Shown one piece after another: positions 2,327 through 22,993 of a DNA stretch of 64,000 nucleotides. This stretch comes from Sphingobacteriaceae bacterium. Lineage in GTDB: Bacteria > Bacteroidota > Bacteroidia > Sphingobacteriales > Sphingobacteriaceae. A model generated the notes under the pieces. The model saw only the letters and a program-made list of their open reading frames with translations. It did no database searches and had not been told where the DNA came from. The DNA lies in NCBI GenBank assembly GCA_947460875.1, contig CANHGR010000009.1:1-64000 (forward strand), in the 5' to 3' direction. Both the position numbers and the translations under genes were made by a program. The number at the start of each line of letters is the position of its first letter. Position 1 is the stretch's first letter.

Positions 2327-2355
2327 TTGCAGTTACAATTTTCTTTATATTTTTG
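2327..2355 (+). promoter_or_regulatory. Bacteroidota-type promoter for the trp leader
   Basis: TTG at 2327-2329 is followed after 18 bases by TATTTTTG at 2348-2355, matching the -33/-7 consensus (TTG, about 19 bases, TAnnTTTG). The start of transcription would fall near 2360, almost on the ATG of the leader peptide at 2361, so the transcript could be nearly leaderless. Confidence 0.55.
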
Positions 2356-2360
2356 TCATC

Positions 2361-2432
2361 ATGACGTTGACAATTTATACTAATAAATGGTGCTGGCCTG
2401 CAAATGTTTTGCGGAATGGAATAATTTGTTAA
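2361..2432 (+). CDS. trpL: trp operon leader peptide
   Basis: This 23-residue reading frame starts MTLTIYTNK and continues W-C-W at codons 10-12 (TGG at 2388 and 2394), then PANVLRNGIIC and TAA. Two Trp codons separated by one codon in a peptide this short are far above chance. The peptide sits between a promoter and a rho-independent terminator just before trpE, the classical arrangement of ribosome-mediated attenuation. When charged tRNA-Trp is scarce, the ribosome would stall at these codons and favour read-through. The peptide itself probably has no other function. Evidence is from position and composition; I did not verify conservation. Confidence 0.75.
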   Translation: MTLTIYTNKWCWPANVLRNGIIC

Positions 2433-2460
2433 AATAGACTTAATCAGAACCTAACATATT

Positions 2461-2491
2461 AACCCGGCGCAATATAACGTCGGGTTTTTTT
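2461..2491 (+). terminator. Attenuator terminator before trpE
   Basis: AACCCGGCG (2461-2469) pairs with CGTCGGGTT (2478-2486) through nine pairs including one G-U, with an 8-base loop and a run of seven T. It stands 28 bases after the leader peptide stop and 31 bases before trpE. A hairpin directly after the Trp codons (CCTGCAAA with TTTTGCGG, about 2397-2414) and a weak pairing of 2409-2413 with 2468-2472 are candidates for the alternative fold. Confidence 0.75.
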
Positions 2492-2522: not shown

Positions 2523-3926
2523 ATGTACACTCTTTATACCACATATAAGCGACTATTAGCCGATACAACCACCCCGGTAAGTATCTATCTTCGGCTGCGC
2601 GATGTTTTTCCGAACAGCATTTTACTAGAAAGTTCAGACTACCACGGCCGTGAAAATAGTATGAGCTATGTGTGTTGTGATCCCATTGCAGGTATCGTTA
2701 TGAAGGATGAGGTGCTTACTGCTTATTATCCCGATGGAAAACAAACTGAGACTCCCGCAGAAGGCTTAGATCTTGTTGACCACGTAGCGCAATTTCGAAA
2801 TAGCTTCAAGTCTGACGATGAAACAGCTTTCAAGTTTATATCGAACGGCTTGTTTGGATATTTTACGCACGAAGTGGTTAACTATTTTGAAGATATAAAC
2901 TTGAAGCAAGATAAGGATTCTGTAAAAAACATTCCTTTACTACAATACCATATTTATAGATACATCATAGCGGTTGACCATTTTAAAAATGAGCTGTATC
3001 TTTTTGAGCATCAAACAAGTGCGGATAGCCCTAGTGGTCTTCAACGAATAGAATACCTAATACAAAACAAGAATTTTCCTGAGTATCATTTCAATTGCAC
3101 CGGCAAAGAGAATTCAAATTTTTCAGATGAAGAATTCATTCAAGTTATCAAAGATCTGAAACAACATATCTATCGTGGGGACGTGTTTCAAATAGTTCCA
3201 TCACGAGCGTTTTCATGCTCATTTTTTGGCGATGAATTCAATGTTTATAGAGCCTTAAGGTCCGTTAATCCATCTCCTTATCTTTTTTATTTTGATTACG
3301 GAAATTTTAAGTTATTTGGGTCTTCGCCCGAGGCCCAACTTACCGTAAAAGGCAGAGAAGCAACAATTTATCCAATTGCGGGCACCTTTAGACGCACCGG
3401 CGATTCAATTCTTGATGCGCAGCTTGCGCAAAAACTAGAAGCCGACCCAAAGGAAAGCGCTGAACATGTCATGCTAGTTGATCTCGCTCGGAATGACCTT
3501 AGCAGACATTGCGACAATGTGGAAGTGAAGGCCTTTAAAGAAGTGCAATACTACTCTCATATTATTCACTTGGTATCAAAAGTAACCGGACAATTACAGC
3601 CGGGCGTAGATCCATTTTATGTAGTGGCTGACACGTTCCCCGCAGGTACATTAAGCGGTGCTCCCAAATACATGGCGATGCAGTTAATAAACAAATTTGA
3701 GAATGGTCAACGGGGTTTCTACAGCGGAGCAATAGGTTACATGGGCTTCAACGGCGATTTTAATCATGCTATAATGATACGATCGTTCATGAGCCGGAAC
3801 AATACGCTTTATTTTCAGGCAGGTGCCGGCATTGTAGCCGATTCTGATCCTGAAAGTGAGTTGACTGAAGTAGATAACAAAATAATGGCACTACGCGTTG
3901 CTATACAAATGGCAGAGGAATTATAA
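2523..3926 (+). CDS. trpE: Anthranilate synthase component I
   Basis: This 467-residue enzyme converts chorismate to anthranilate with ammonia supplied by the TrpG subunit, the first committed step of tryptophan synthesis. The C-terminal chorismate-binding domain (about residues 200-460) shows PIAGTFRRTGDS, DLARNDL, GTLSGAPKYMAM and the final HAIMIRS and GAGIVADSDPE motifs. Near residue 34 the LLESS motif is the usual site of feedback inhibition by tryptophan. It is followed after five bases by trpG, so the two subunits are made from one message under the upstream attenuator. p-Aminobenzoate synthase PabB is the main alternative, but the LLES motif, the leader and the neighbouring trpC favour TrpE. 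Confidence 0.95.
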   Translation: MYTLYTTYKRLLADTTTPVSIYLRLRDVFPNSILLESSDYHGRENSMSYVCCDPIAGIVMKDEVLTAYYPDGKQTETPAEGLDLVDHVAQFRNSFKSDDETAFKFISNGLFGYFTHEVVNYFEDINLKQDKDSVKNIPLLQYHIYRYIIAVDHFKNELYLFEHQTSADSPSGLQRIEYLIQNKNFPEYHFNCTGKENSNFSDEEFIQVIKDLKQHIYRGDVFQIVPSRAFSCSFFGDEFNVYRALRSVNPSPYLFYFDYGNFKLFGSSPEAQLTVKGREATIYPIAGTFRRTGDSILDAQLAQKLEADPKESAEHVMLVDLARNDLSRHCDNVEVKAFKEVQYYSHIIHLVSKVTGQLQPGVDPFYVVADTFPAGTLSGAPKYMAMQLINKFENGQRGFYSGAIGYMGFNGDFNHAIMIRSFMSRNNTLYFQAGAGIVADSDPESELTEVDNKIMALRVAIQMAEEL

Positions 3927-3931
3927 TTGGT

Positions 3932-4501
3932 ATGAAGAAGATTTTGGTTATAGACAACTACGATTCGTTTACATTTAACCTGGTTCATCTACTAAATGAA
4001 TGTGGGCATAAAGCCACCGTTTGGCGGAACGATAAGTTTGAGATCGAGGATGTGAATGAATTTGACAAAATATTGCTCTCGCCAGGTCCTGGTATCCCAT
4101 CTGAGGCTGGATTATTGCTGGAAGTGATCAAGACTTATGCGACGAACAAAAGCATTCTTGGAGTATGCCTTGGAATGCAGGCAATGGCCGAAGTATTTGG
4201 AGGTACTTTATATAATCTTTCCAGACCGGTTCATGGGCGAGCAACGTCTATTGATGTTTTAGATAGTGATGAGGAACTCTTTAAAGGCCTTCCGAAGTCT
4301 TTCCTAGTAGGTAGATATCACTCTTGGGCGGTAAGTGATCAACAACTTCCCGACATAATAAAGGTAACTGCAAAAGATACCGAAGGGGTAATCATGGCAT
4401 TGCGTCATGCAGACTTAGATGTCCGTGGCGTGCAGTTCCATCCGGAATCGGTATTAACCGAGAATGGGAAGCAGATCATCGGCAACTGGTTGGTAAATTA
4501 A
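3932..4501 (+). CDS. trpG: Anthranilate synthase component II, glutamine amidotransferase
   Basis: This class I glutamine amidotransferase of 189 residues is a full-length stand-alone subunit. It shows the oxyanion motif LSPGPGIPSEAG, the nucleophile C79 in GVCLGMQ, and H170 and E172 in QFHPES, a complete catalytic triad. It hydrolyses glutamine and channels ammonia to TrpE. Such subunits often serve both anthranilate and p-aminobenzoate synthesis, and no separate pabA is seen in the window. The gene starts five bases after trpE and ends 11 bases before trpC. Confidence 0.94.
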   Translation: MKKILVIDNYDSFTFNLVHLLNECGHKATVWRNDKFEIEDVNEFDKILLSPGPGIPSEAGLLLEVIKTYATNKSILGVCLGMQAMAEVFGGTLYNLSRPVHGRATSIDVLDSDEELFKGLPKSFLVGRYHSWAVSDQQLPDIIKVTAKDTEGVIMALRHADLDVRGVQFHPESVLTENGKQIIGNWLVN

Positions 4502-4512
4502 TCCAGAATAAA

Positions 4513-5304
4513 ATGAATATTCTTGATCGCATTGTTGCCAGAAAATTAGTTGAAATTAGTGTTGCAAAAACCACTGTCTCGATTGTAGAACTTGAAAAAG
4601 CCGAGCTGTTTAATCGAGAATGCTACCGATTAAATGATTTCATCGTAAATCCCGATAAATCAGGAATTATAGCAGAATTCAAAAGAGCCTCTCCATCAAA
4701 GGGAATTATTAATGATAAAGTAAGTGTAGCCCAGGTCACAAAGGGATACGCTTCTGCTGGAGCATCGGCGCTGTCAGTTTTAACGGACCATGATTTTTTT
4801 GGCGGCAGCCTTGCTGATTTGGCTGAAGCGCGTAAAGAAAACGAAATTCCGATCCTACGTAAGGAGTTTATACTTGATGAATACCAAATCATCGAAGCGA
4901 AGGCATGGGGTGCAGATATTATTCTTTTGATCGCCGCCATTCTTACGCCAGCCAGGATATCGGCATTAGCTCAGTGTGCTCAAAATTTGGGTATGAGTGT
5001 CCTATTGGAAGTCCATAACAAAGAAGAACTTAACCGCAGTTTATGCGATGAACTGAGTGCAGTAGGGGTAAATAATCGCAACCTCACGGATTTTTCAGTT
5101 TCAGTGCAGCACTCATATGATCTTGTTGACGTTATTCCGGATAATTTTCTTAAGATTTCTGAAAGCGGGATAAGCAATATAGACACGATAAATGAGCTAA
5201 AAATGGCGGGCTTTAATGGGTTCTTAGTCGGCGAAAACTTCATGAAGGAGGCAGACCCGGGCCAAGCGATGCAGAACTTCGTTGATAAGCTGAGTAGAAT
5301 ATAA
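4513..5304 (+). CDS. trpC: Indole-3-glycerol phosphate synthase
   Basis: This 263-residue TIM-barrel enzyme closes the indole ring of carboxyphenylaminodeoxyribulose phosphate. Family motifs are present: IIAEFKRASPSKG near residue 52, ALSVLTDHDFFGG, LRKEFILDEYQI, GVNNRNL and the phosphate-binding ISESGI. It is a single-function protein, not fused to TrpF. It directly follows trpG, so trpD, trpF, trpB and trpA, which commonly accompany these genes in Bacteroidota, must lie outside the window. The run ends with a 46-base gap before hflX, and I see no strong terminator there. Confidence 0.95.
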   Translation: MNILDRIVARKLVEISVAKTTVSIVELEKAELFNRECYRLNDFIVNPDKSGIIAEFKRASPSKGIINDKVSVAQVTKGYASAGASALSVLTDHDFFGGSLADLAEARKENEIPILRKEFILDEYQIIEAKAWGADIILLIAAILTPARISALAQCAQNLGMSVLLEVHNKEELNRSLCDELSAVGVNNRNLTDFSVSVQHSYDLVDVIPDNFLKISESGISNIDTINELKMAGFNGFLVGENFMKEADPGQAMQNFVDKLSRI

Positions 5305-22801: not shown

Positions 22802-22993
22802 AGAAAACTAAGTTTAGATAAAGAAATTGTTGAACTCGGATAACGTAAGTCTGATTGCAGTCTAGAGATTGTATTTAGCAATTTTTTGGCGTGGTTGCAA
22901 TCAAAGCAAATCAATCCACCTGTCGTACGCCAAAACTACAATAATTTTCATATTCCGGAAAATTTACGAGTACTTTGCGGAAATTTATCTCCA

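Follow-up and report, generated by a model that had tools for sequence, protein, structure and literature searches.

The trpEGC locus and its leader region

The window, a 64,000-nucleotide stretch of DNA from a Sphingobacteriaceae bacterium, carries trpE, trpG and trpC in succession on the forward strand, with hflX and rbfA after trpC (NCBIfam naming). An earlier note on this DNA had placed a promoter, a 23-codon open reading frame (ORF) with Trp codons at 2388 and 2394, a hairpin and a terminator with a T7 run upstream of trpE, and checks of the window sequence, its ORFs and its folds found every one of these parts where it had been placed:

2326-2329, + strand: TTTG, -33 promoter element (from the sequence; consensus TTTG/TANNTTTG, PMC6847099)
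2348-2355, + strand: TATTTTTG, -7 box of Bacteroidota sigma-A (from the sequence; in 81/81 loci the start codon follows the box at 3-9 nt)
2360-2361, + strand: predicted transcription start, 0-1 nt 5' of the leader ATG (from F. johnsoniae spacing, PMC6847099)
2361-2432, + strand: leader peptide ORF MTLTIYTNKWCWPANVLRNGIIC, 23 codons, Trp codons at 2388-2390 and 2394-2396 (ORF translation)
2398-2414, + strand: hairpin 1:2 (anti-antiterminator), 2398-2404 paired with 2408-2414 (fold -6.4 kcal/mol, z -2.0)
2409-2472, + strand: predicted antiterminator, 2409-2413/2468-2472, 2417-2419/2464-2466, 2422-2425/2458-2461 and 2427-2431/2452-2456 (co-transcriptional fold)
2461-2491, + strand: intrinsic terminator AACCCGGCG-8-CGTCGGGTT plus T run (hairpin 2461-2486, T7 run, -14.1 kcal/mol)
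2523-3926, + strand: trpE, anthranilate synthase component I (NCBIfam; TIGR00564 is the best match, below its cut-off)
3932-4501, + strand: trpG (NCBIfam match)
4513-5304, + strand: trpC (NCBIfam match)

The leader ORF begins 5 nt past the TATTTTTG box. Transcription in F. johnsoniae starts 4-5 nt downstream of the -7 box of a sigma-A promoter with the consensus TTTG/TANNTTTG (PMC6847099), and applying this spacing rule, which is borrowed from another genus, to the box at 2348-2355 predicts a start at 2360-2361, in agreement with the earlier proposal that it lies nearly on the leader ATG. A sigma-70-like promoter match inside the leader ORF (2353-2381) was rejected, as Bacteroidota promoters are of the TAnnTTTG type.

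Just 5' of the leader, positions 1861-2310 encode a small hydrophobic protein with a weak family match only; a similar protein also precedes the leader in one relative (L017, 5331-5783). Elsewhere in the window, a SAM-II riboswitch match of 51.8 bits lies at 22865-22925 on the minus strand.

The leader and terminator are conserved in Sphingobacteriaceae

The comparison set consisted of 80 named trpE loci from Sphingobacteriaceae-type organisms (TrpE identity 64-78%), the closest being that of Paradesertivirga mongoliensis, which together with the window gave 81 loci. A Trp-codon leader occupies the equivalent place in 80/80 relatives (81/81 with the window), its stop codon lying about 80-195 nt upstream of trpE, and an intrinsic terminator lies between leader and trpE in 81/81 loci. 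Two loci (L032 and L054) lack the ATG and have a GTG start at the same position. The first Trp falls at codon 8-13, mostly codon 10, and in nearly every locus 6-9 codons separate it from the start codon; the Trp motifs of the relatives are mostly WW, WWW or WLW, while three Mucilaginibacter-like loci (L043, L044 and L050) have a single Trp codon at the stall position. Hairpin 1:2 has a mean z of -1.7 over the 81 loci (z<0 in 73/81), and an antiterminator strand is nearly always present in the 80 relatives. The survey of terminators and antiterminators demanded a TTTG box 3-10 nt 5' of the start, which 0 loci failed, and a listing of leaders made without this requirement gives the same picture.

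A covarying antiterminator in the relatives

In the relatives, the Trp codons are directly followed by a strand, GCG[C/U]CGGG or a shorter form, that pairs with the terminator 5' arm CCCG[G/A]CGC, and nearly every locus has a duplex of better energy than its shuffles (mean z -2.9). The core pair covaries: counted over the 81 loci on anchored blocks, and not on the MAFFT alignment, 38 have C-G as the central pair and 23 have U-A, while in the other 20 the centre is unpaired, which speaks against the model; the terminator-side G faces C in 38/38 (Fisher 2e-9, ignoring phylogeny). The search for conserved Trp codons and covarying stems in relatives that the earlier note had proposed thus came out positive on both counts. 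Depending on the locus, the core falls in any of the three reading frames, and in 3 loci it is outside the ORF altogether; it is therefore conserved as RNA rather than as peptide. From 28 mixed sequences in a plain MAFFT alignment, RNAalifold returned no consensus structure for the antiterminator region, and from 11 mainly Mucilaginibacter-like sequences it returned a short helix only; the reason is that the variable hairpin is left unaligned by MAFFT. When the terminator 3' arm and the ribosome-covered part were removed before folding, a long antiterminator formed in most relatives tested.

The window itself differs from this pattern in that its core does not have the CGG strand present in the relatives. 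The weak pairing of 2409-2413 with 2468-2472 that the earlier note drew is correct, but it is merely the end of a longer helix: the co-transcriptional fold predicts an antiterminator of 17 bp in four blocks, of which this pairing is the first, at -10.4 to -11.0 kcal/mol (ribosome over 2402 or 2408, RNA ending at 2476). In a duplex test the window antiterminator is weak (-7.6 kcal/mol, p 0.15). Folding both states, as had been suggested, gave a divided answer, in that the antiterminator forms in RNA ending at 2476, while folds containing the complete terminator prefer the terminator; the predicted switch must therefore rely on the order of synthesis. Evidence from the window by itself is modest (fold z = -1.5), and on these fold predictions the argument for this genome is at its weakest in the window's own antiterminator. 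At the level of sequence, the main support for an attenuator in the window is conservation, with leader and terminator in 81/81 trpE loci.

The trpE leaders have a predicted near-leaderless start

The distance from box to start codon is 3-9 nt (median 6) in 81/81 trpE loci, and this predicts 5' UTRs of about 0-5 nt. When the box is required to be a strict TAnnTTTG, 74/79 ATG leaders have it at 3-8 nt, compared with 25/808 control ORFs (3%), which come from these loci and are at least 150 aa long. By comparison of sequences, a predicted near-leaderless start is a conserved property of Sphingobacteriaceae trpE leaders and not a quirk of one genome, and a leaderless trpE leader is a strong prediction. 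The earlier note had called such a start unusual, which is true of the Bacteroidota whose transcripts have been mapped, where leaderless mRNAs make up 5.5% in F. psychrophilum (PMC9723704) and 5' UTRs under 10 nt about 3.7% in B. thetaiotaomicron (PMC7366714), but on these predictions it is the rule in Sphingobacteriaceae trpE leaders.

Other leader peptides of the family provide a comparison. His-rich leaders (e.g. MPVVFTHHVHFHHRHCGDR) precede hisG in 29/30 family loci, and their box-to-ATG distance has a median of 33 nt (25 with a clear box), with only 2 at 7 nt; the short spacing is therefore not general to the leader peptides of this family. The His leaders were found by searching from hisG, as a pattern search for leaderless ones was swamped by chance matches; conserved His-rich leaders (HHxHxHHR) with ordinary 5' UTRs are seen at the hisG loci L129 and L127-L156. 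No convincing conserved leader was found at ilvD loci; in one genome, a possible branched-chain leader (MNPRLRRRLSITVTSLVPVINVIVVLLIASHSKVS) with a terminator lies near ilvD (L177, about 1222, minus strand).

The remaining trp genes of the genome of the window, trpD-trpF-trpB-trpA, lie on another contig, where they have a Trp leader and a terminator of their own:

L221:2725, own genome, contig C2: Trp leader MKYHSLNTAWWWRSKYRLQSN (WWW) 5' of trpDFBA
L221:2821-2843, own genome, contig C2: terminator 5' of trpDFBA

Within the family, 27/30 trpD loci have an upstream Trp leader, with a consistent variant of the promoter box (NATATTTG, mostly CATATTTG) at 5-17 nt. The median spacing is 11 nt, so the trpD leaders are predicted to be near-leaderless rather than leaderless. 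A search for the WWW pattern across the family was noisy. Judging from the trpE, trpD and hisG leaders, attenuators of the leader-peptide type are general in Sphingobacteriaceae.

Relation to known leader systems

Trp attenuation in Bacteroidota is no novelty: it has been on record since 2010 as the Bacteroid-trp RNA RF01692, 'Bacteroidete tryptophan peptide leader RNA' (Weinberg 2010, PMC2864571). The two elements are alike in their phylum, a short ORF with Trp codons (WWW in RF01692) and a terminator before trp genes. In loci matched by RF01692, however, box-to-ATG distances are mostly 18-23 nt, some shorter, and the stem sequences differ from those of the window. The model (cut-off 49 bits) has no match in 2250-2600 at E<=10 and none in the window's own genome, and a single sub-threshold match was obtained among the same-family genomes sampled. 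On sequence grounds, the window element is a divergent relative of RF01692 that the model does not detect. Upstream of the trp operon of F. psychrophilum, an element has been noted (PMC6414381), and leader-peptide attenuation of amino-acid operons has been inferred in that species, with structured elements before hisG and pheA (PMC9723704).

The enterobacterial trpL (Trp_leader RF00513; 14.2 bits in the window, below its cut-off of 41) shares a leader peptide in which Trp codons are adjacent, hairpins that exclude one another and a terminator; it has a Shine-Dalgarno 5' UTR and another type of promoter, whereas the window leader is predicted to be without that 5' UTR. In many Sphingobacteriaceae loci the antiterminator strand pairs, through its GCCG, with the last Trp codon (UGGC), which is the classical arrangement. 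The earlier suggestion that the mechanism may be unlike the enterobacterial one, made from the weak pairing in the window, does not hold in the relatives, whose core is a strong covarying GCG[C/U]CGGG:CCCG[G/A]CGC helix, and the logic therefore matches. In Sinorhizobium meliloti, the ATG of the trpL leader (trpL/rnTrpL) is the 5' end of the transcript (PMC7298713); this Trp leader ORF belongs to an alphaproteobacterium and is unlike that of the window in sequence and promoter, and the corresponding 5' end in the window is predicted from box spacing alone.

A probable ribosome-mediated attenuator of trpEGC

Across the 81 loci, the hairpin, terminator, Trp leader and covarying antiterminator point to a ribosome-mediated trp attenuator, the layout recognised in the earlier note, and attenuation at trpEGC is well supported by comparison. 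The element is very probably an attenuator of this kind with RNA polymerase starting no more than about 1 nt from the leader AUG. The start, the translation of the leader and the dependence on Trp are what we infer from this arrangement. A ribosome would load on the bare 5' end of the RNA. When charged tRNA-Trp is ample, it would run past the Trp codons, the antiterminator strand would be taken up by hairpin 1:2 or by the ribosome itself, and the terminator at 2461-2486 would form and stop transcription. When charged tRNA-Trp is scarce, the ribosome would stall at 2388/2394 and mask 2398-2404, the first arm of hairpin 1:2; the strand 2409-2431 would then be free to pair with 2452-2472 as the latter emerges, which would block the terminator and allow trpEGC to be transcribed.

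The attenuator could be real but have an ordinary 5' UTR, with the true start upstream or the peptide begun at an internal codon. In some relatives another ATG does follow within the first few codons (MMN.., MLMN..), leaders recognised by RF01692 mostly have 18-23 nt between box and ATG, and the window start is a predicted one. We regard this as unlikely, given the spacing of 3-9 nt in 81/81 loci, a start codon kept as GTG in two of them, the mere 6-9 codons from start to first Trp in nearly all, and the fact that no comparably conserved second box was seen in the 81 loci. Less likely again is a terminator that sets constant low expression in this genome, its antiterminator having decayed and its Trp codons being irrelevant. 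The weak window duplex and a core without the CGG strand of the relatives would fit such decay, yet the leader has kept its Trp codons, the hairpin, the terminator and the spacing of the promoter are likewise retained, an alternative 17-bp antiterminator is predicted, and the same genome has a second Trp leader. Control by a Trp-binding protein (TRAP-like), a T-box or a riboswitch in place of a translating ribosome would likewise end in a terminator before trpE, but it is highly improbable, with no Rfam family above chance in 2250-2600 and with a start codon whose conservation, like the in-frame Trp codons, makes sense only under translation.

A conserved leaderless attenuator would be a natural reporter for how leaderless initiation works in Bacteroidota, and the same reporter could show whether the ribosome follows RNA polymerase closely enough there to control termination. 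The trpE (predicted 5' UTR of about 1-2 nt), trpD (about 6 nt) and hisG (about 28 nt) leaders offer a ready-made comparison within one family.

Trp leaders across Bacteroidia

The regions upstream of 33 trpE genes from genomes of the class, a small sample, were surveyed, and nearly all that were complete have a Trp-codon leader. The box-to-start distance is at most 8 nt in 16 loci from 11 families (in some the box has a single mismatch, and two of the leaders contain just one Trp), 9-14 nt in 5 loci and at least 15 nt in 8 loci from 6 families, the last group including four loci (L196, L197, L208 and L211) from genomes recognised by RF01692. As RF01692 matches 14/295 class genomes, the Rfam model covers only part of the Bacteroidia Trp leaders. 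From these spacings, leaderless appears to be the common form of Trp leader in the Bacteroidia sampled, and it is this prevalence that appears to be new; open-licence PMC literature yielded no report of leaderless Trp leaders in Bacteroidota, which does not in itself prove novelty.

Short leaderless upstream ORFs act as attenuators in mycobacteria, and leaderless mRNAs are common in Actinobacteria; these are likewise leaderless regulatory short ORFs, in another phylum and for another amino acid. Bacteroidota do not use Shine-Dalgarno sites. Tentatively, and with somewhat less than even confidence, we suggest that leaderless is the ordinary, selected design of Trp attenuators across Bacteroidia, in which the ribosome would load on the bare 5' AUG as it emerges and stay coupled to polymerase in a phylum without Shine-Dalgarno sites, and that the RF01692 lineages gained their 5' UTRs secondarily.

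In one locus, a sub-threshold match to the Rfam family Flavo-1 lies over the leader and terminator region on the strand opposite trpE (L218:403-498); Flavo-1 may partly be terminator hairpins.
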